Shown piece by piece: positions 18,215-25,366 of a stretch of DNA of 25,366 nt. Position numbers and translations under genes: made by a program. The notes under the pieces were generated by a model. The model did no database searches, was not told where the DNA came from, and saw only the letters and a program-made list of their open reading frames with translations. This DNA comes from a virus. Within the stretch, counting starts at the first letter, position 1; the number at the start of each line of letters is the position of its first letter. The stretch covers positions 1 through 25,366 of IMG/VR virus record IMGVR_UViG_3300044634_001881; one strand, 5' to 3'.

Positions 18215-18312
18215 TAGTTATTTTCCTTTTCATTTATTGCGATTGTTAGTGAGGTAATACCTGAGATAGCATTGTCAAATTCTTCCCAAGTGTCAAAGGT
18301 TAGTGTTATCAT
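18214..18312 (-). CDS. 32-aa hypothetical protein (early, leftward)
   Basis: A 32-aa acidic-to-neutral peptide (MITLTFDTWEEFDNAI...) between two coupled neighbours. Its start overlaps the upstream TAA and its stop overlaps the next ATG. That double TAATG overlap, rather than its sequence, is the reason to accept it. Function unknown. Confidence 0.55.
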   Translation of the reverse strand: MITLTFDTWEEFDNAISGITSLTIAINEKENN

Positions 18313-18482
18313 TAGTCATCTCCTACAATTTCAAATTCTTCTTCCTGAAGTTTAGCCTTGATTTCCATAATCAGCAAGTCCCTAAAGTTGATTCTATCCT
18401 TAGCGTTTACCTTGAAGGTCATTTCGGTCATCTCAGTCATAACCTCATCCACTATGTCTATTACTCGCATTTTTCTAGCCAT
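18312..18482 (-). CDS. 56-aa hypothetical protein (early, leftward)
   Basis: A 56-aa protein with a basic start (MARKMRV) and a Met/Glu/Lys-rich helical body. Its ATG at 18482 follows an AAAGGATA ribosome-site-like stretch and the ATGTC-box promoter at 18504-18532. It heads a three-gene coupled operon. No recognisable family. Confidence 0.62.
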   Translation of the reverse strand: MARKMRVIDIVDEVMTEMTEMTFKVNAKDRINFRDLLIMEIKAKLQEEEFEIVGDD

Positions 18483-18503: not shown

Positions 18504-18532
18504 AACCTAGCATAACCTACCGACATTTATAC
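18504..18532 (-). promoter_or_regulatory. ATGTC-box promoter, leftward, TAGGTT -10
   Basis: On the minus strand: ATGTCGGTAGGTTATGC, then -10 TAGGTT, with the box starting exactly 17 nt before the -10. An extended TGC precedes the hexamer. The -35 position reads GTATAA, which is poor. The ATGTC box directly follows the TAA of the gene at 18527-18652. Confidence 0.8.
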
Positions 18533-18652
18533 TCTGTAAACACTTACAACATCTGCCATTGAGATGCCTTCCTGTGCTAGGTAGAATCCCCAGTTATCTC
18601 CTGGGTAAATCTCAACTTTTCCATTTGTAAAGGTAATCTGGACTTTTTCCAT
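18527..18652 (-). CDS. 41-aa hypothetical protein (early, leftward)
   Basis: A 41-aa protein (MEKVQITFTNGKVEIYPGDNWGFYLAQEGISM...) with a beta-then-helix look and no known family. It is the first leftward early gene, driven by the ATGTC-box promoter at 18695-18723. Its stop codon touches the ATGTC box of the next promoter. Confidence 0.62.
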   Translation of the reverse strand: MEKVQITFTNGKVEIYPGDNWGFYLAQEGISMADVVSVYRV

Positions 18653-18694
18653 TTTACACTTCCTTTCTTTTATCTAATCTTTCTTTATACTTAG

Positions 18695-18723
18695 AGCCTA
18701 TCACTAGCTACCGACATTTCTGC
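18695..18723 (-). promoter_or_regulatory. ATGTC-box promoter, leftward, TAGGCT -10
   Basis: On the minus strand: ATGTCGGTAGCTAGTGA, then -10 TAGGCT, 17-nt spacing, with an extended TGA. The -35 position (GCAGAA) does not fit TTGACA. It drives the 41-aa gene at 18527-18652, after a leader with an AAAGGAAGT-like ribosome site. Confidence 0.8.
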
Positions 18724-18754
18724 CCATTTTACAAGACATTTCTATACAAACTTT

Positions 18755-18775
18755 TACCCTGTTTTTTGTAGGGTA
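18755..18775. other. 6-bp hairpin in the divergent control region
   Basis: TACCCT and AGGGTA pair perfectly around a 9-nt loop containing six T. It lies between the two divergent promoters. It could be an operator or a small RNA structure. Confidence 0.4.
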
Positions 18776-18813
18776 TCTACAACAATTGCGACACGCCCGA
18801 CGCCGTGCGCCAC

Positions 18814-18833
18814 TGTGGATAACCTGTGGATAA
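18814..18833. promoter_or_regulatory. Two tandem DnaA-box sequences
   Basis: TGTGGATAA occurs twice, at 18814-18822 and 18825-18833, 11 bp apart. Its complement TTATCCACA is the classical DnaA-box consensus. They sit about 50 bp upstream of the first rightward promoter in a GC-rich patch. They could mark an origin or DnaA-dependent early transcription. Confidence 0.6.
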
Positions 18834-18873
18834 CTCCGTTATGAGAATGTTATAAGACACGCTGAATTATCTC

Positions 18874-18902
18874 CCCCGAATGTCGGTGGTTTGTGATAGG
18901 GT
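18874..18902 (+). promoter_or_regulatory. ATGTC-box promoter, rightward, TAGGGT -10
   Basis: ATGTCGGTGGTTTGTGA, then -10 TAGGGT, spacing 17, with an extended TGA. The -35 position (CCCCGA) is not a match. It drives the zinc-ribbon gene at 18931. Confidence 0.8.
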
Positions 18903-18930
18903 TTTAGTAAGTCAAAAGAAAGGAAACCAA

Positions 18931-19071
18931 ATGGACTTGATGTGTATCTACTGCGAAGGTGTCTACACTAGCGATACAGTTGTGTGCCACAGCTGTAATG
19001 AATACAAGGGGCTTATGCCACTAGATTCAGCTATTGACTATCTAGACCTTGACCCTAATGACTTTTCATAA
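18931..19071 (+). CDS. 46-aa zinc-ribbon protein (early)
   Basis: A 46-aa protein with C5-x2-C8 and C19-x2-C22, a simple four-cysteine zinc ribbon, followed by an acidic helical end. I start at 18931 because an AAAGAAAGG ribosome site precedes it; an ATG at 18880 in the same frame is part of the promoter's ATGTC box. Small zinc ribbons in phages may bind nucleic acid or host proteins; no specific partner can be seen. Confidence 0.68.
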   Translation: MDLMCIYCEGVYTSDTVVCHSCNEYKGLMPLDSAIDYLDLDPNDFS

Positions 19072-19094
19072 ATGTCATACCCCCATGCTAGGTT
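19066..19094 (+). promoter_or_regulatory. ATGTC-box promoter, ATGTCATAC variant, TAGGTT -10
   Basis: ATGTCATACCCCCATGC, then -10 TAGGTT, spacing 17, with an extended TGC. It starts right after the TAA of the zinc-ribbon gene. It drives the coupled gene set from 19119. The ATGTCATACCCC variant recurs at 21983-22011. Confidence 0.75.
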
Positions 19095-19118
19095 TGTAGT
19101 AATCGGAAAGGATACCTA

Positions 19119-19265
19119 ATGAAGCAATCAGTAATCACAGACACCACCATAACCACCATTGTGGCTAAGGCAGAGGACATCATCGACAGACCTCTAACCT
19201 ACATGGAAGGTGCTCTCATAGACTATGTTGTTAACCAGATTCGTTTTGGATTGGTGGAAAAGTAA
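19119..19265 (+). CDS. 48-aa hypothetical protein (early)
   Basis: A 48-aa protein, mildly acidic, with a Thr/Ile-rich start (VITDTTITTIVAKAEDI). It has an AAAGGATA ribosome-site-like stretch. Its stop overlaps the next ATG (TAATG), so translation is coupled. Unknown function. Confidence 0.6.
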   Translation: MKQSVITDTTITTIVAKAEDIIDRPLTYMEGALIDYVVNQIRFGLVEK

Positions 19266-19378
19266 TGATGTTTTATAACGGATTCAACTTGCTAATTGAC
19301 CTATTGTTAGTTATACTGGCGTATGAGGTTGGAATGTATTTTGGAACTAAGAGAGTAATTGAGAGGACAAAGAAATGA
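19265..19378 (+). CDS. 37-aa single-pass membrane protein (early)
   Basis: A 37-aa protein with a hydrophobic helix at residues 8-27 (NLLIDLLLVILAYEVGMYFG) and a basic tail (KRVIERTKK), so a small inner-membrane protein with a cytoplasmic basic end is likely. It is coupled on both sides (TAATG before, ATGA after). Unknown role; small membrane proteins at this point in phages can act in exclusion or lysis, but this is not shown. Confidence 0.6.
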   Translation: MMFYNGFNLLIDLLLVILAYEVGMYFGTKRVIERTKK

Positions 19379-19533
19379 CCGAAGAGATGTTTGATGAGTG
19401 GCTAGATGATGTTTACCCAACTTACAAAATTGCTGGCGTAGAACTATACCCCTCGCAAATACTAAAGAACTGCGACCCTATCGCATACAGAATTGCCCTA
19501 TCAGAAATTGAGGATGATGAAGATGACAATTGA
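19375..19533 (+). CDS. 52-aa acidic hypothetical protein (early)
   Basis: A 52-aa strongly acidic protein (start MTEEMFDEWLDDVYP, end EIEDDEDDN). Its ATG overlaps the upstream TGA. An acidic DNA-mimic function is a possible guess but has no direct support. Confidence 0.58.
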   Translation: MTEEMFDEWLDDVYPTYKIAGVELYPSQILKNCDPIAYRIALSEIEDDEDDN

Positions 19534-19618
19534 AGAATTAGAAACTTTGATTTATCAAATTGACCTAATGCTAACTGATGATGTTAGCCAACTATTCACA
19601 ACACCAGAGGAGAACTAA
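19523..19618 (+). CDS. 31-aa acidic peptide (early)
   Basis: A 31-aa peptide (MTIEELETLIYQIDLMLTDDV...) overlapping the end of the previous gene by 11 nt and ending just before the next ATG. Likely helical and acidic. Accepted because it fills the coupled operon; unknown function. Confidence 0.5.
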   Translation: MTIEELETLIYQIDLMLTDDVSQLFTTPEEN

Positions 19619-19753
19619 ATGGAATTGTTTTTGATTTTTGTAATCGTTGGTATTGCTATTTTTGTTGGAACTTCACTTGCCGCAGTTTTATTTCTGCTAC
19701 AAGAAAACAACAGGCTTGGCGAAGAGCTAGAAAAAAACCAACCGCCTTTCTAA
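19619..19753 (+). CDS. 44-aa single-pass membrane protein (early)
   Basis: A 44-aa protein with a long hydrophobic helix at residues 2-27 (ELFLIFVIVGIAIFVGTSLA, then AVLFLL) and a charged end (ENNRLGEELEKN). It is the last gene of the coupled set driven from 19066-19094, followed by a GC-rich hairpin at 19761-19776. Unknown function. Confidence 0.6.
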   Translation: MELFLIFVIVGIAIFVGTSLAAVLFLLQENNRLGEELEKNQPPF

Positions 19754-19760
19754 AACGACA

Positions 19761-19776
19761 CGCCCGACAGGGGGCG
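19761..19776 (+). terminator. GC-rich hairpin after the tiny-gene operon
   Basis: CGCCC and GGGCG form a 5-bp GC stem around a short loop, followed by a GGCGCCAGAT element. No U-tract, so a weak or factor-dependent terminator. The same GGCG(C)CCA element follows other early operons. Confidence 0.45.
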
Positions 19777-19833
19777 CCAGATCTTGATCCAAAAGTCAAT
19801 TACGTAGTCTATTAAAAATGTCCTAAAATTTAC

Positions 19834-19862
19834 CCTGAAATGTCAGTGGTTCGTGATAGGAT
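19834..19862 (+). promoter_or_regulatory. ATGTC-box promoter, TAGGAT -10, leaderless
   Basis: ATGTCAGTGGTTCGTGA, then -10 TAGGAT, spacing 17, with an extended TGA. The hexamer ends exactly 6 nt before the ATG at 19869, so the transcript is probably leaderless. The -35 position reads CCTGAA. Confidence 0.78.
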
Positions 19863-19868
19863 TATCCT

Positions 19869-20024
19869 ATGTTAGATAAAGCCAATGAAGCTAGACGCAA
19901 GGCAGAAGCCCAAGCGTTGTTTCAGACTATGCTAAAGGCTAAGCATACTGTAATTACCCCTAAGCCTAATAAAGGAACACGGCAGTCTACCAAAAGAAAG
20001 GCAATAGATGAGCAAAGTCTATAA
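19869..20024 (+). CDS. 51-aa basic protein (early)
   Basis: A 51-aa strongly basic protein (ANEARRKAEAQALFQ, then HTVITPKPNKGTRQSTKRK), likely nucleic-acid binding by charge. The start is set by the promoter geometry (6 nt after the -10), so no ribosome site is needed. The next gene starts inside it (overlap of 17 nt). No family recognised. Confidence 0.62.
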   Translation: MLDKANEARRKAEAQALFQTMLKAKHTVITPKPNKGTRQSTKRKAIDEQSL

Positions 20025-20142
20025 TTGTTTTGACTGTAATAAACTCACCAGGGACTTGTTGGAATTCAAGACAATAAATGTCTGTGGCAGATGTTATGCT
20101 GTTAGAGCTAATCACCCCTCAGCAAGAAAGTTGGTAAAGTAA
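20008..20142 (+). CDS. 44-aa zinc-ribbon protein (early)
   Basis: A 44-aa protein with C7-x2-C10 and C26-x2-C29, a zinc ribbon related in layout to 18931-19071. It overlaps the basic-protein gene and shares TAATG with the next gene. The C-terminus is basic (RANHPSARKLVK). Unknown target. Confidence 0.62.
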   Translation: MSKVYNCFDCNKLTRDLLEFKTINVCGRCYAVRANHPSARKLVK

Positions 20143-20237
20143 TGTTTGAGAATGTAATCAATGAGCAGGCTATCCTAGACCTTACCGAAGAGCAGGTAGT
20201 AGCAATTATGGAATTGCTAGAGAAAGCAGGATACTAG
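20142..20237 (+). CDS. 31-aa helical peptide (early)
   Basis: A 31-aa peptide (MFENVINEQAILDLTEEQ...). The shape fits a single amphipathic helix pair. It is fully embedded in a coupled series, sharing bases with both neighbours' start/stop codons. Unknown function. Confidence 0.5.
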   Translation: MFENVINEQAILDLTEEQVVAIMELLEKAGY

Positions 20238-20362
20238 TGTTAGGACAACTAAGCATAAGCTTTTGTGATACCTGTAATGAGTTTGCAATGGTGTCGGTGG
20301 TAGATGGTAAGCTAATGGTTCAGTATTGTGATTGTGAAGTAGAAACTCTAGAAGGAGAATAG
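20237..20362 (+). CDS. 41-aa Cys-containing protein (early)
   Basis: A 41-aa protein with C10-x2-C13 and C31-x-C33, an atypical zinc site. It starts with GTG, sharing the G of the upstream TAG. It ends just before a strong GAAGGAGAA ribosome site for the 89-aa gene. Unknown function. Confidence 0.55.
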   Translation: MLGQLSISFCDTCNEFAMVSVVDGKLMVQYCDCEVETLEGE

Positions 20363-20364
20363 AA

Positions 20365-20634
20365 ATGGGATACGCAACAGCAGTTGGACTTACAGATACA
20401 GACCTAACTCTATCAGACCAAATTAGTATTCACTTTAGTAGTAATTGCTATCCACCAATTCCCAAGGTAATGATTCCTGTAGCAGTAGCAGCTATTGACG
20501 CTTATTGGGAAGATGACTACTCTCGAATGATACCGTTGCCTGATGGCGTAGAGTTTAGAGATGGTTCAACAAGCGTGTCTGCCTCACAAGCTATTGAGTC
20601 TTTGAGACTTGATGCTTGGTGTTTGGAAGAGTAG
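20365..20634 (+). CDS. 89-aa hypothetical protein (early)
   Basis: An 89-aa protein of mixed character: MGYATAVGLTDTDLTLSDQI at the start, a SSNCYPPIPKVMIPVAV stretch in the middle, and an acidic, Trp-containing end. The clear GAAGGAG site before the ATG sets the start. It is the last gene of the 19869-20634 operon, before the CCCTC-GAAA-GAGGG hairpin. I do not recognise a family. Confidence 0.68.
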   Translation: MGYATAVGLTDTDLTLSDQISIHFSSNCYPPIPKVMIPVAVAAIDAYWEDDYSRMIPLPDGVEFRDGSTSVSASQAIESLRLDAWCLEE

Positions 20635-20645
20635 ACCCTACAGGT

Positions 20646-20659
20646 CCCTCGAAAGAGGG
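20646..20659 (+). terminator. CCCTC-GAAA-GAGGG hairpin
   Basis: A 5-bp GC-rich stem closed by a stable GAAA tetraloop, directly followed by the GGCGCACCAGAT element, 11 nt after the stop of the 89-aa gene. Terminator-like, but without a U-tract. Confidence 0.55.
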
Positions 20660-20710
20660 GCGCACCAGATCCTGATCCATAAGTCAAATTAAGAAACGTT
20701 TAAGAAGCCC

Positions 20711-20739
20711 TTGAAAATGTCCTAGGGTACTGGTATAGT
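20711..20739 (+). promoter_or_regulatory. ATGTC-box promoter with TTGAAA -35, TATAGT -10
   Basis: TTGAAA, then ATGTCCTAGGGTACTGG, then TATAGT, spacing 17. It has a fair -35 and an extended TGG. It drives the GP88-like gene at 20767. Confidence 0.8.
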
Positions 20740-20766
20740 TTTACCATACAAAGAAAGCAGGCCCCT

Positions 20767-21483
20767 ATGCTAATTCGTTCTAAAGACCGAAAGGTTACTA
20801 ATGCAGTATCTCCAAATGGTAAAACGCCAACTATTGCGAATACTTTTGGCCTTCCTTCTGGGAAAGCTTATTCCTGCCCTGGAGCAACAAGTGTATGCGA
20901 GAAAATCTGTTATGCGGGAAAGCTCGAAAAAGTATTCAAAGGTGTAAAAGCTGTACTGTTGACTAACTGGGACCAACTAAAAGACGCCAGTCAAGAACAA
21001 ATGGAAGCGCTACTATACCAAATGATAGATGAGTTCGACAAGGATTGTGATAAAAGGAATGCTGAAAGACTTTTTCGTATACATTGGGACGGTGACTTTT
21101 TTAGTGATACTTATACAGTGGCTTGGCGCAATGTAATCAAGGCATTCCCTAAGATTCAATTCTGGGTATACACTAGGTCAGACTTTGCAATTCCTATTCT
21201 TACTGGTATCGATAACTTAGCGCTTTACTTCTCAACCGATGATGACAACTGGCAGCTGGCCAGTGAATTAAAAAAGAGTACTGGCGTCAAGCTTGCTTAT
21301 CTTGCTAACAACTTTGCAATGGGTAAAGAGCGGATGTTGTCTATCACCGTCAAGTCTGCAATACCGTGCCCTGAGAATTCCAAGAAGCTACCGTTAATTA
21401 GCGACAAAGGTTCTGCATGTGTGACTTGCGGACAGTGTGTGTTTGCTCGGAATGACATTCTTTTTAGTGCAAGTAAAACATAA
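20767..21483 (+). CDS. GP88-like actinophage protein
   Basis: A 238-aa protein. Its N-terminal pattern TFGLPSGKAYSCPGATSVCEKICYA (C37, C44, C48), then a LFRIHWDGDFFS block (102-113), then FWVYTR (132-137), fits the 'gene product 88' family of mycobacteriophages. More cysteines follow at C201, C218, C221 and C224 in a CVTCGQC-type end. Two cysteine clusters may hold a metal or iron-sulfur centre. The biochemical role of the family is unknown to me. It stands alone between two ATGTC-box promoters. The ATG at 20767 has an AAAGAAAG ribosome site. Confidence 0.83.
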   Translation: MLIRSKDRKVTNAVSPNGKTPTIANTFGLPSGKAYSCPGATSVCEKICYAGKLEKVFKGVKAVLLTNWDQLKDASQEQMEALLYQMIDEFDKDCDKRNAERLFRIHWDGDFFSDTYTVAWRNVIKAFPKIQFWVYTRSDFAIPILTGIDNLALYFSTDDDNWQLASELKKSTGVKLAYLANNFAMGKERMLSITVKSAIPCPENSKKLPLISDKGSACVTCGQCVFARNDILFSASKT

Positions 21484-21509
21484 TCTCATGCTATAGGGGC
21501 ATGTAAAAC

Positions 21510-21545
21510 GTAGGTCCCCTGTTATATCCTTTCTTGGGGATCTAC
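21510..21545 (+). other. 10-bp RNA stem after GP88-like gene
   Basis: GTAGGTCCCC and GGGGATCTAC pair over 10 positions with one G-U, around a 16-nt loop. It lies between the GP88-like stop and the TAAAAC hairpin. It may act as a terminator or RNA-stability structure. Confidence 0.5.
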
Positions 21546-21551
21546 ACGTCC

Positions 21552-21574
21552 TGGCTACGACGTAAAACTGGCCA
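21552..21574 (+). other. TAAAAC hairpin, copy 1
   Basis: Stem TGGCTA/TGGCCA (6 bp, one U-G) with an 11-nt loop CGACGTAAAAC. Related hairpins at 23804-23826 and 24731-24753 keep the pairing while the bases change. The element GGCGCACCAGAT follows at 21581. Confidence 0.65.
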
Positions 21575-21666
21575 CAATCAGGCGCACCAGATTTAGCAGC
21601 AGTAGTCAAGTTTAAGAAGATAACGATTTGCCCCCCGAATCGTTATAAAATAATTGCCTCAAACAC

Positions 21667-21695
21667 TATACAATGTCGGTGGTATCCGCTACAAT
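21667..21695 (+). promoter_or_regulatory. ATGTC-box promoter, TACAAT -10
   Basis: TATACA, then ATGTCGGTGGTATCCGC, then TACAAT, spacing 17. It drives the 50-aa gene at 21759 and leaves a ~57-nt leader. Confidence 0.8.
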
Positions 21696-21758
21696 AGACC
21701 TATCAACAAAAGTTGGTAAATAATCAAACAAGACCCTCTGGGTTGGAATAGGAAGCAA

Positions 21759-21911
21759 ATGTCAAACGCAACTCTAACTGTTGGCTCACAGTTCACCACT
21801 CTAAAGTCTGGAGTATCAGGCACAATTCAGGAAATCGTAAACAACAAGAACGGAACCAAGCGTGTTCGTCTTGATGTAAACGGACAGCCACGCTGGACTA
21901 CTGTAAAGTAA
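21759..21911 (+). CDS. 50-aa basic protein (early)
   Basis: A 50-aa protein of short beta strands (LTVGSQFTTLKSGVSG, then IVNNKNGTKRVRLDVNGQPRW), resembling a small SH3-like or KOW-like barrel, but the family is not certain. The ATG is preceded by GGAATAGGAAGCAA, a good ribosome site. It has its own promoter and a 57-nt leader. Unknown function. Confidence 0.68.
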   Translation: MSNATLTVGSQFTTLKSGVSGTIQEIVNNKNGTKRVRLDVNGQPRWTTVK

Positions 21912-21982
21912 TCTAATTAGTGTAGTGGCGTTAGACTACATAAAAGGGTGAATCAGAGTCTATTTGAGAACCCCTGCCACTT

Positions 21983-22011
21983 TCACAAATGTCATACCCC
22001 ACCCCTATAAT
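21983..22011 (+). promoter_or_regulatory. ATGTC-box promoter, ATGTCATAC variant, TATAAT -10
   Basis: TCACAA, then ATGTCATACCCCACCCC, then TATAAT, spacing 17. The box shares the ATGTCATACCCC form with the promoter at 19066-19094. It drives the coiled-coil gene at 22041. Confidence 0.8.
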
Positions 22012-22040
22012 GTAAATACCCAAAAAGAAAAGGAAAACAA

Positions 22041-22484
22041 ATGGCTAGAACCCTGTCAGTAAAAATCCCAACCGCAAAACTAATCGCAGATGTAGAGTCA
22101 TCTATTGCTAAGATTGAGACTGCTATTGCTGAGTATGCTGAGAAGCGTAAGCAGTATGAAGTAGAAATCAAGCAGTATGAGAAAGACATTGTTGCTCACG
22201 CTATCAAGGCTATGTCAGACCCAGATAACATTGGAACAGAACACGGCTCTCTAGTTCGTGTATCAAGAGGATACAGCGGAAATGTGTCTGTTGATTTTGA
22301 TGTTGATGGACTTGGTTTCCCAAAGAAACCAGAAGAGCCAAGCAGACCAAACGAGAAGACCTATTTTGGTCGTGAGTATCTAACTCGTAAGGAATTGCTA
22401 GAGCGTAATCTTCGTATTCTAAAGATGACCTCACAAGAGGAAGTTTCAGCAAGTTCTTACTCTGCTGTTATTGACCTAATCTAA
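22041..22484 (+). CDS. Coiled-coil hypothetical protein
   Basis: A 147-aa protein. Residues 12-60 are strongly heptad-like (IAKIETAIAEYAEKRKQYE, then EIKQYEKDIVAHAI) and should form a coiled coil. Residues 62-100 hold NIGTEHGSLVRVSRGYSG and a VDFDVDGLGFP segment, and the end is basic, then Ser-rich. I know proteins of similar size beside DUF932 genes in actinophages but cannot name a family. The ATG at 22041 has an AAAGGAAA site and its own promoter. Confidence 0.7.
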   Translation: MARTLSVKIPTAKLIADVESSIAKIETAIAEYAEKRKQYEVEIKQYEKDIVAHAIKAMSDPDNIGTEHGSLVRVSRGYSGNVSVDFDVDGLGFPKKPEEPSRPNEKTYFGREYLTRKELLERNLRILKMTSQEEVSASSYSAVIDLI

Positions 22485-22785
22485 TCTTAGGGCAATCCCC
22501 CTGCTAGTCAGGCACAACGCCCGAAGCAACCTGAGTATGTTGTAAAACTGCTTCCACAAGTTGGCACAAATACTGCGTCTCTTAGACTCTAAAGCTGAAG
22601 CCAACATTTTCCCTGTGAAGTGATCTGGATAGATTGCTGGTAGCAGGGAAAAGTGGGGCGCCCCCCATTTTCGTTATCATATTGTTATTTATGATGACTA
22701 ATTATTTTGCCCTGAATCGTTGACAATGTCGGAGGGTAGCCCTATAATTAGACTATTAGTAATCCCCCTAAAGAAAGTAGAAAAC
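22485..22785. other. 301-bp non-coding region with predicted RNA structure
   Basis: No gene is seen. It holds several inverted repeats: CCCTGCTA/TAGCAGGG enclosing about 150 nt, GAAGCA/TGCTTC, GTTGGC/GCCAAC and a perfect 9-bp TTTTCCCTG/CAGGGAAAA pair. A GGGGCGCCCC palindrome follows, then the ATGTC-box promoter of the DUF932 gene at its right end. Part of it may be a structured RNA or a terminator-and-control module. Confidence 0.55.
22720..22748 (+). promoter_or_regulatory. ATGTC-box promoter with full TTGACA and TATAAT
   Basis: TTGACA, then ATGTCGGAGGGTAGCCC, then TATAAT, spacing 17: the most complete promoter of the set. It drives the DUF932 gene. Because it is perfect at both hexamers it anchors the alignment of the other 11. 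Confidence 0.88.
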
Positions 22786-23793
22786 ATGGCACATGAACTA
22801 GAATCAGTAAACGGACAGACTGCCTTTGCTTCACTCAGAGAGCCAGCTTGGCATGGCTTAGGCACAGTCTTCACCGAAGAAGTTTCAACTAACCAGATGT
22901 TGAGCTTGGCACACCTAGACAATTGGAATGTTCGCCTAGAAGATGTAGAAGTTCCAACTGGCTTTGCTTCAGACAAGAGCTATTCTTTTGTAGTCAGAGA
23001 TAATCCTTTTATTGAAGACCAGAAAGACATTCTCGGTGTTGTCGGTGAGCGTTATGTTCCGCTTCAGAATGAGGACTTGTTTGACTTTGGCGACTTGATG
23101 TTAGACGGCGGTGGTCGTTGGGAAACAGCAGGTTCAATCAAGAATGGTAGACAGGTATTCGGTTCGCTTGCTCTTGAGCGTGAAACTATCCTAGACCCTA
23201 ACGGCGTGTCAGATAAGGTAAACACTTATCTTCTAATCAACACTAGCCATGACGGCTCTGTTGCTATTCAAGCAAGTATCACGCCTGTTCGTGTTGTTTG
23301 TGCTAACACTCTAAACCTTGCTCTTGGTAATCGTGGTCGTGGTGGTTCTGTCAAGCAGTCATTCAAGATTAGACACACACAGACAGCTTCAGGCAAGGTT
23401 CAGCAAGCTCGTGAGGCTCTTGGCTTGGCTAATGCTTACATGGACAAGTTTGATGAAATGGCAAAGTCTATGATTGAAACTCAAATTACCAAAGACAAGT
23501 TTGATGAGCTAATTCTCAAAGCATACCCAAAGCCTGAGAAAGATTCCAAGGGTTCAATCAAGAAGTGGGAAACCAAGGTGGACATTCTTCAGGGTATCTA
23601 TGTTGGTTCAACTAATGAAATGATTGCTGGAACTGCTTGGGGTGCTTTCAATGCTCTAACCGAAAGACTAGACTGGTATCGTTCGGCAAGAGGTGGAAAC
23701 ACAGAATCTATTCTGGCTTCTGCTTCTGGCTTTGACCCTGTAATCACAGCAGAGAAAAATAGATTGCTTCAGTTAGTTTTGGCTAACAGCTAA
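22786..23793 (+). CDS. DUF932 phage/plasmid-like protein
   Basis: A 335-aa protein. I start at the ATG at 22786 (MAHELES), with an AAAGAAAG site; a TTG 66 nt upstream coincides with the promoter's -35. The segments PAWHGLG, ERYVPLQNEDLFDFGDLML, VSDKVNTYLLINTSHDGS and TPVRVVCANTLNLAL are hallmarks of the DUF932 / phage-plasmid-like family (TIGR03299 group). The function is not established; it is common in phages and plasmids of Actinobacteria. It stands alone as a single-gene transcription unit with the strongest promoter in the window. Confidence 0.9.
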   Translation: MAHELESVNGQTAFASLREPAWHGLGTVFTEEVSTNQMLSLAHLDNWNVRLEDVEVPTGFASDKSYSFVVRDNPFIEDQKDILGVVGERYVPLQNEDLFDFGDLMLDGGGRWETAGSIKNGRQVFGSLALERETILDPNGVSDKVNTYLLINTSHDGSVAIQASITPVRVVCANTLNLALGNRGRGGSVKQSFKIRHTQTASGKVQQAREALGLANAYMDKFDEMAKSMIETQITKDKFDELILKAYPKPEKDSKGSIKKWETKVDILQGIYVGSTNEMIAGTAWGAFNALTERLDWYRSARGGNTESILASASGFDPVITAEKNRLLQLVLANS

Positions 23794-23803
23794 TCAAAAG
23801 TCC

Positions 23804-23826
23804 TGGGCATGACTAAAAACTGCCCA
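23804..23826 (+). other. TAAAAC hairpin, copy 2
   Basis: Perfect 6-bp stem TGGGCA/TGCCCA with an 11-nt loop TGACTAAAAAC, just after the DUF932 stop. The middle pair is G-C here but C-G in the other copies, which is direct evidence of covariation. GGCGCACC follows at 23858-23865. Confidence 0.68.
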
Positions 23827-23912
23827 TCACTTACACTTGACACAGGATCAAAAAAGTGGCGCACCCAGGATAACGAAACCATAACAAGTTTACGACACAC
23901 TTTAAGAACCCC

Positions 23913-23941
23913 TTGAAAATGTCCGTGGTCCGTAGTAAAAT
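23913..23941 (+). promoter_or_regulatory. ATGTC-box promoter with TTGAAA, TAAAAT
   Basis: TTGAAA, then ATGTCCGTGGTCCGTAG, then TAAAAT, spacing 17. It drives the 40-aa gene at 23969 after an AGGAAAGGAA ribosome site. Confidence 0.82.
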
Positions 23942-23968
23942 GGACACATAACAGGAAAGGAACCCCCA

Positions 23969-24091
23969 ATGGACGAACAAGCAGCAGAAATTAGAGAAAA
24001 CCTAGCAGACTACTATGCTAACCCAGAAGAATACAGCCTATCCGACTTCGAGGAAATCTTTCAAGATAGGGACCCCTTCGAGTTCTTATAA
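23969..24091 (+). CDS. 40-aa acidic protein (early)
   Basis: A 40-aa strongly acidic protein (MDEQAAEIRENLADYY, then SDFEEIFQDRDPFEFL). A clear AGGAAAGGAA site precedes the ATG. Its stop codon lies at the start of the next promoter's ATGTC box. No family; acidic charge might mimic DNA, but this is only a guess. Confidence 0.65.
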   Translation: MDEQAAEIRENLADYYANPEEYSLSDFEEIFQDRDPFEFL

Positions 24092-24113
24092 TGTCGTAGG
24101 GTAATGGTAAAAT
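24085..24113 (+). promoter_or_regulatory. ATGTC-box promoter, TAAAAT, overlaps stop codon
   Basis: CTTATA, then ATGTCGTAGGGTAATGG, then TAAAAT, spacing 17. The TAA stop of the 40-aa gene shares a base with the ATGTC box. It drives the pair at 24138-24691. Confidence 0.8.
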
Positions 24114-24137
24114 TCAAAAACAACGAAAGGAAAACAA

Positions 24138-24335
24138 ATGCCGTATGTAATGGAACAAACCAGCTATGTATCTGAGGATGGAAACTTTGGAACAGGCTAC
24201 TTGCTAACATTCCCCTTTGACGCTTTGAATGAAGACCAATGGGATGTTCTGGACATTTTGCCAGATTCACAAAAGATGGAGTATGCTCAGGCTATTCTTG
24301 ATGGACAGCCAGACCTATCAGAGTGGGAGGACTAA
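24138..24335 (+). CDS. 65-aa acidic hypothetical protein (early)
   Basis: A 65-aa acidic protein with an aromatic-rich start (MPYVMEQTSYVSEDGNFG) and a DQWDVLDILPDSQKME helix. A GAAAGGAAAA site precedes the ATG. It is coupled to the next gene through TAATG. No family recognised. Confidence 0.68.
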   Translation: MPYVMEQTSYVSEDGNFGTGYLLTFPFDALNEDQWDVLDILPDSQKMEYAQAILDGQPDLSEWED

Positions 24336-24691
24336 TGCTAGACGTCTTAGAGATGGACTGGAGAATCGATGAGTATACCAATGAGGCTAAGGGCATTGCT
24401 TGGGATACCTGCCACAAAATCTATGTACTCATGGATGACGAGCAGGTAGCGCTTCAAAGGAGCTATGGCTATGGAGATGAGCCTGACCCAGACAGCCTAA
24501 TCACAAGTGAGCAGATGACTGGTGATGAAATGAGAAAGCAAGTCATGGAGTGGTATCAGAAGTCTTGTGGCCTAAGGTTTATTTCAGCTGTTTCTACTAA
24601 TCCTAGTTTTGGTGAAGATGGTTGGGTTCACATTATTAGTCAGTTTGAAGATACTGAAGATGACGAAGATGAGGACGACGAAGACATGTAG
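24335..24691 (+). CDS. 118-aa acidic hypothetical protein (early)
   Basis: A 118-aa protein. I start at the ATG at 24335, overlapping the upstream TAA. It has mixed strand/helix content (DTCHKIYVLMDDEQVAL, then GDEMRKQVMEWYQKSCG) and a very acidic tail (about 12 Asp/Glu in the last 15 residues). An acidic tail fits a DNA mimic or a flexible interaction tail; not proven. Confidence 0.68.
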   Translation: MLDVLEMDWRIDEYTNEAKGIAWDTCHKIYVLMDDEQVALQRSYGYGDEPDPDSLITSEQMTGDEMRKQVMEWYQKSCGLRFISAVSTNPSFGEDGWVHIISQFEDTEDDEDEDDEDM

Positions 24692-24730
24692 TGCATTCCC
24701 TTACTTCCTTTCTGGAATGTACTGCGGTCC

Positions 24731-24753
24731 TGGCCATGACCTAAAACTGGCTA
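24731..24753 (+). other. TAAAAC hairpin, copy 3
   Basis: Stem TGGCCA/TGGCTA (6 bp, one G-U) with an 11-nt loop TGACCTAAAAC, followed by GGCGCACCA at 24762. It shares GTCC before the stem with copies 1 and 2. Confidence 0.66.
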
Positions 24754-24827
24754 CAACTTTAGGCGCACCACATAAACGGATCAGTGTCAACAGTTTAAGA
24801 AGAATTAAGAAAACGTCCCGAAACCCC

Positions 24828-24856
24828 TTGATAATGTCGGTGGGTAGTAGTAAAAT
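24828..24856 (+). promoter_or_regulatory. ATGTC-box promoter with TTGATA, TAAAAT
   Basis: TTGATA, then ATGTCGGTGGGTAGTAG, then TAAAAT, spacing 17. It drives the gene that runs off the right edge. Confidence 0.82.
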
Positions 24857-24884: not shown

Positions 24885-25366
24885 ATGGGAACCAGAAATC
24901 TAACAGTAGTAAAAGACAAAGCAGGACAAACTAAGATTGCTCAATACGGACAATGGGACGGATACCCTAGCTATTCAGGTATTCAGGCTCTAGAGTTTCT
25001 AAGAAACAAAGACTGGCAAGCATTGCTACAGTCTAAGCTAGACCTTGTAGAGTTTGTTGGTGATGAGGAAGTAGATACGCTGTATAAGCAGTATGAGACT
25101 ACTGATTGGGAGAATAAGGATTTCCTAAACGCATACCCTGGCCTACACAGAGATACTGGTGTTGGTATCCTATCAGTAGTTGCTAATGCTACTGCCCCTA
25201 TCAAGAGTGTTGATAATACAGAGTTTGCTAAGGATGACTTATTTTGTGAAGGTATCTATGAGGTAGACTTCAAGACTAATAAGTTTATTACTACCTATGC
25301 TGACAAGGTTGTTGAGTATGACCTTGATACCCTGCCAACAGACGAAGAATACCTAGCCCAATGGGA
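24885..25366 (+). CDS. MGTRNLTVV / QWDGYP phage protein, partial
   Basis: The gene is cut by the right edge; about 160 residues are visible. Its start, MGTRNLTVV then IAQYGQWDGYPSYSG, is a conserved signature of a phage protein family of unknown function that I recall from several actinophages and other phages. The middle is acidic and Trp/Tyr-rich. A GAAAGGAACC site and its own ATGTC-box promoter precede it. Nothing else can be said without the rest of the gene. Confidence 0.82.
   Translation, partial: MGTRNLTVVKDKAGQTKIAQYGQWDGYPSYSGIQALEFLRNKDWQALLQSKLDLVEFVGDEEVDTLYKQYETTDWENKDFLNAYPGLHRDTGVGILSVVANATAPIKSVDNTEFAKDDLFCEGIYEVDFKTNKFITTYADKVVEYDLDTLPTDEEYLAQW

Follow-up and report, generated by a model that had tools for sequence, protein, structure and literature searches.

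The window analysed here is the whole of one IMG/VR virus record, a linear stretch of 25,366 bases that is probably a fragment. Its first 17.9 kb are devoid of the motif ATGTC-N12-TANNNT, and the sites are confined to a block of small genes after 18.5 kb. This block includes a GP88-family gene (PF17338; 20767..21483) and a DUF932 gene (PF06067; 22786..23793), both on the plus strand. Most of the small proteins of the window match no family.

An earlier note had listed twelve ATGTC sites with a TANNNT hexamer starting exactly 17 nt after the first base of the box, and all twelve were recovered as described. They are treated below as putative promoters, termed RecA-NDp-type for their resemblance to a class of actinobacterial DNA-damage promoters, or CC-flavour where a CC pair follows the TGTC core. 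Two RecA-NDp-type sites lie on the minus strand, ATGTCGGTAGGTTATGCTAGGTT (18504..18526) upstream of a 56-aa ORF (18312-18482) and ATGTCGGTAGCTAGTGATAGGCT (18695..18717) upstream of a 41-aa ORF (18527-18652). The others are on the plus strand. The RecA-NDp-type site ATGTCGGTGGTTTGTGATAGGGT (18880..18902) has its box start 51 nt from a start codon, and its ortholog in the related locus L008 has a CC box at an identical distance. It is followed by the CC-flavour site ATGTCATACCCCCATGCTAGGTT (19072..19094), upstream of a 48-aa ORF (19119-19265), and by the RecA-NDp-type site ATGTCAGTGGTTCGTGATAGGAT (19840..19862), which has an ATG 29 nt from the box start (19869). Orthologous promoters in the comparison phages show the same 29-nt distance, and the mRNA is predicted to be leaderless because the predicted transcription start site (TSS) coincides with the ATG. 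Further on, ATGTCCTAGGGTACTGGTATAGT (20717..20739, with a TTGAAA -35) precedes the GP88 gene, the RecA-NDp-type site ATGTCGGTGGTATCCGCTACAAT (21673..21695) precedes an ORF at 21759-21911, the CC-flavour site ATGTCATACCCCACCCCTATAAT (21989..22011) precedes an ORF at 22041-22484, and ATGTCGGAGGGTAGCCCTATAAT (22726..22748, with a TTGACA -35) precedes the DUF932 gene. The last three are ATGTCCGTGGTCCGTAGTAAAAT (23919..23941, with a TTGAAA -35) upstream of an ORF at 23969-24091, ATGTCGTAGGGTAATGGTAAAAT (24091..24113) upstream of an ORF at 24138-24335, and the RecA-NDp-type site ATGTCGGTGGGTAGTAGTAAAAT (24834..24856, with a TTGATA -35) upstream of an ORF starting at 24885. Just four of the twelve, those at 20717, 22726, 23919 and 24834, thus have a TTGA-type -35, as had been claimed, and eight have none.

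The core TGTC with TANNNT 12 nt on is present at 12 of 12 listed sites; seven continue as TGTCRG, and the remainder have C/T or T at one of the two positions after TGTC. Exact matches to ATGTC-N12-TANNNT number 13 in the 25.4-kb window, against a mean of 1.08 and a maximum of 4 in 100 dinucleotide shuffles. When the spacing was varied from 5 to 24 nt, N12 alone was enriched (13 hits, against 0-6 for each other spacing), and every TGTCNGTGG box in the window (7/7) has its TANNNT at this distance. The thirteenth match, ATGTCTGTGGCAGATGTTATGCT (20078..20100, plus strand), lies within an ORF at 20008-20142 and is uncertain, as is a possible extra site, GTGTCGGTGGTAGATGGTAAGCT, of the form GTGTCGGTGG-N7-TAAGCT (about 20291..20313, plus strand), within an ORF at 20237-20362 and upstream of one at 20365-20634. 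These two sites inside short ORFs (20078 and about 20292) may be chance occurrences or internal promoters.

The DUF932 protein served to find relatives, and the comparison covers 80 viral loci whose DUF932 relatives have 73-100% identity. The motif recurs in them: these loci have 832 sites, whereas eight other spacings average about 92, some loci being near-copies of one another. A logo of 719 distinct sites is A-rich before ATGTC, and has mostly G at +6 and paired GG or CC at +8/+9. The -10 is TAtaaT-like and preceded by TGN, and a T-A step is conserved at +28/+29 of the box, a position that would fit -1/+1 of a transcript. A -35 matching TTGACA at four or more of six positions was found at 24% of the GG-type sites and 15% of those of the CC type, against a background of 5%, and is missing from 76-85% of the family's sites. 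At orthologous phage genes the box is kept at a nearly equal distance from the start codon. Upstream of DUF932, 34 of 80 loci have the strict motif and 5 the reversed pattern; TTGTC or a variant -10 stands there in several of the loci that lack it. The sites also cluster along the genome: a 116-kb relative has 19, of which 16 fall within 34.8-42.2 kb, 15 of these 16 on one strand.

A scan of viral contigs for the motif yielded 119 loci, 73 of which have DUF932 or GP88 relatives; of the motif-rich loci without such relatives, 28 of 29 matched the same virus group by blastn. Among 15 cultured actinophages with DUF932 or GP88 relatives there was no clear array, so use of the array seems specific to the uncultured group. 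A phage protein specific to the family had no match among cultured phages.

The arrangement is that of a known class of bacterial promoter. The M. tuberculosis RecA-independent DNA-damage promoter (RecA-NDp) has been described as tTGTCRgtg-N8-TAnnnT (PMC5656591), and the PafBC motif of the same species as TGTC(G/A)G-N10-TA-N3-T, a directional element that acts in one direction only and whose targets include the rv2719c operon, adjoining lexA (PMC8151990). PafBC is a host heterodimer activated by single-stranded DNA (ssDNA); in its initiation complex PafB engages a promoter motif at -26, and PafC contacts sigma domain 4, the normal reader of the -35 (PMC11804915). Counted from TGTC, the position of the TA in the phage sites equals that in both published motifs exactly. 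The phage sites share with RecA-NDp/PafBC promoters of Mycobacterium and other Actinobacteria the TGTC box, the 12 nt to TANNNT, the orientation, a weak or absent -35 and the inferred TSS, and this match in sequence, spacing, orientation and TSS makes host PafBC the best candidate for the factor that reads them. They differ in standing on a phage, in at least 12 copies within a few kb before small phage genes, in a first base that is mostly A instead of T, and in having two flavours after TGTC. Another WYL activator, SiwR, likewise works at the -26 region, but its promoter is built on an imperfect palindrome of 19 bp in which a GGA at -26 is conserved, and one target operon has been described (PMC10693628). 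A literature search found no report of the RecA-NDp/PafBC promoter class on a phage, and searches with the box strings returned unrelated papers only. To our knowledge, the class is known from bacterial genes only.

We consider it probable, from the sequence comparisons, that in these sites the phage carries promoters of the actinobacterial RecA-NDp (PafBC-dependent) class, by which it exploits the PafBC of its host. The RNA polymerase of the host, together with the housekeeping sigma factor, would contact the TANNNT -10, and host PafBC would bind the TGTC box at about -26 and link it to sigma region 4, so that a good -35 would not be needed. Since ssDNA switches PafBC on, the ssDNA arising from phage replication or from genome damage would turn on or boost the dozen small transcription units. 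We infer PafBC binding, the ssDNA trigger during infection, the timing and the identity of the host. If the proposal is true, a host DNA-damage alarm joins the viral expression programme, phage replication feeds phage transcription, and genotoxic stress of the host tunes infection.

Several observations count against PafBC. Of the 12 window sites just 7 have strict TGTC(A/G)G, the candidate host family described below has almost no CC-flavour boxes, and no clear arrays were seen in cultured actinophages with related genes, whose hosts would nonetheless be expected to have PafBC. Some of the family's sites could also work without an activator, since about 15-24% have a TTGACA-like -35.

The alternative that survives best is a phage-encoded activator outside the WYL family that reads the box as a MotA-type regulator of middle genes. 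In T4 middle promoters the contact of sigma region 4 with the -35 gives way to an activator near -30. The earlier note had compared the sites with these promoters and proposed an activator in place of the -35. The sites do fit promoters of that kind, with an activator near -26, and the likeness extends to the replacement of the sigma region 4/-35 contact (with the MotA box and AsiA in T4), but it is an analogy only: T4 supplies MotA and AsiA itself, and the sequence of its MotA box is different, whereas the regulator here is likely a host stress regulator. A phage factor would account for the concerted shifts of flavour across many promoters of a phage, since a phage regulator with altered specificity should have that effect, and many of the phage proteins belong to no recognised family. 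Repair genes on host chromosomes, however, stand under an identical box at the same spacing, which needs no phage protein. A WYL (PafBC-type) protein was absent from all 50 phage records searched, up to 124 kb in length, and no sigma factor, WhiB or HTH regulator is among the Pfam families listed for 79 proteins of the 116-kb relative. With no such family found in the phages searched, host PafBC is the economical candidate, and we regard a phage activator as unlikely. The earlier note had left the activator as phage- or host-encoded; the described host activator of matching specificity, which it did not name, is PafBC.

It is highly unlikely that the sites are housekeeping promoters of the ordinary extended -10 kind, in which the box is spacer read by RNA polymerase alone. 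Such promoters would be consistent with the TGN before the -10 at 41-54% of the family's sites, with the TTGACA-like -35 of the minority noted above and with a few DUF932 orthologs that have TTGACA-N17-TANNNT and no box. TGTC, however, lies outside known sigma-A recognition, is locked in position and is common to the DNA-damage regulon of the phylum, and a distant relative, Streptomyces phage Angela, has plain promoters without a TGTC box. The stoperators of mycobacteriophage L5 are multiple, asymmetric, intergenic sites bound by a phage repressor, and the sites described here are similarly numerous, asymmetric and intergenic but locked to one spacing, whereas those of L5 stand at no fixed distance from a -10. 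We regard it as highly unlikely that the box is an operator for a phage repressor between -35 and -10, in spite of its many asymmetric copies in short intergenic regions and the TTGACA that directly precedes some of them, because every site lies at one exact distance from the -10, most lack the -35 that a repressed promoter should retain, and the element is an activator motif in mycobacteria (PMC5656591, PMC8151990).

The exact composite pattern was also scanned for in 84,980 genomes. The 32 hits, mostly in unrelated phyla, were at about chance level, and the scan was useful only as an entry to the acI-type genome SCGC AAA278-O22 and one Mycobacterium locus. SCGC AAA278-O22 (acI-B) has two adjacent WYL proteins that match the solved PafB and PafC, and in its family all 61 of 61 genomes have a WYL protein, mostly as a PafB/PafC-type pair together with a WYL protein of about 730 aa. 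Summed over these 61 genomes, TGTCRGTGG-N7-TANNNT was matched 97 times and its reversed control 17 times; the loose ATGTC-N12-TANNNT, unlike this longer motif, was no commoner than its reversed control. Two RecA, five LysM and five NlpC/P60 proteins are among the products of the ORFs downstream of 30 fetched matches. Also recurring is a small protein beginning MII(D/N)C, without a listed Pfam match, whose start codon falls at the predicted TSS behind the box (L138, L139, L141, L142, L149, L152, L154 and L155); it is a candidate for an unnamed DNA-damage gene. In SCGC AAA278-O22 itself the motif also lies ahead of a gene for a CarD-like transcription regulator (L101 7645-7668). The family around this genome is our candidate for the host. 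A contig with a 73% identical DUF932 relative was present in 1 of 296 genomes of the candidate order, which may reflect mis-binning. The CC-type box ATGTCNKACCCC had a single match in the 61 genomes of the family; because it is nearly absent there, CC-rich phages may use other hosts.

The CC flavour occurs on other actinobacterial chromosomes, with 108 matches against 10 for controls, summed over 397 Actinomycetota genomes. The pattern TGTCNGACCCC-N5-TANNNT stands upstream of recA, radA, sbcD, polA, dnaX and helicase genes in many Actinomycetota (L312-L359). ORFs downstream of 48 CC-type matches also include a DEDD exonuclease, RmuC, NrdE and SCO1167-type helicases, and many of them start at +28/29 from the T of TGTC, the predicted TSS; a part of the 48 matches seems unrelated and is probably due to chance. 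The earlier proposal of an activator recognising ATGTCGGTGG was therefore too narrow, since the flavours GTGG and GACCCC both occur upstream of actinobacterial repair genes; the core is TGTC and its spacing, and the next bases come in two flavours. The M. smegmatis motif has been reported as apparently not conserved in Streptomyces (Streptomyces venezuelae; PMC9380542). The genomes with TGTCNGACCCC-N5-TANNNT include several of 8-10 Mb, a Streptomyces-like size, and the TGTCNGACCCC box may be the PafBC box reported missing there. A GACCCC-type box upstream of repair genes across Actinomycetota bears on whether a PafBC response exists in genera such as Streptomyces.

Within the phage group the two flavours are not randomly mixed (chi-square 361, 71 degrees of freedom, 72 loci, a value inflated by near-identical loci). 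The flavour labels can be placed on the DUF932 tree with 16 changes, whereas shuffled labels take 36.7 on average. The DUF932 proteins of L020 (13 GG, 1 CC) and L026 (1 GG, 10 CC) are 93% identical, and at several orthologous promoters the one has GG where the other has CC; between L008 and L003, which nearly duplicates the window, six orthologous promoters differ in flavour. In these comparisons (L018/L020 with L025/L026, and L003 with L008) most orthologous promoters go from GG to CC, and TGTC, the spacing and the -10 are unchanged. We infer from this parallel change that the promoters follow a change in a trans factor, possibly a change of host. The fuller picture, of an aquatic actinophage group with a replication-coupled switch on the host ssDNA sensor PafBC whose promoters are rewritten in parallel between TGTCRGTGG and TGTCNGACCCC when the trans factor shifts its specificity, for example on a change of host, is tentative. 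If the proposal is true, promoter arrays of this kind would be a clue to the hosts of uncultured actinophages, and so many natural promoter sets would open the specificity of PafBC to study.

Other features accompany the arrays. The 116-kb relative (L306-L311) encodes RecA, a primase, a DnaB-type helicase and ribonucleotide reductase, as well as Hsp20, GroES and a proteasome/HslV-like subunit. In the window, the boxes at 18717 and 19840 each have an extra ATGTC exactly 22 nt upstream (at 18739 and 19818), a distance of about two helical turns; neither extra copy has a -10 of its own. Dispersed repeats of the GGCGCACCAGATC type (19771-19802, 20659-20690 and 21581-21612) and of the CCTGGC-ACGACGTAAAACTG type (21550-21570, 22530-22550, 23802-23822 and 24729-24749) precede several promoters by about 40-200 nt and are possibly terminators or another control element.
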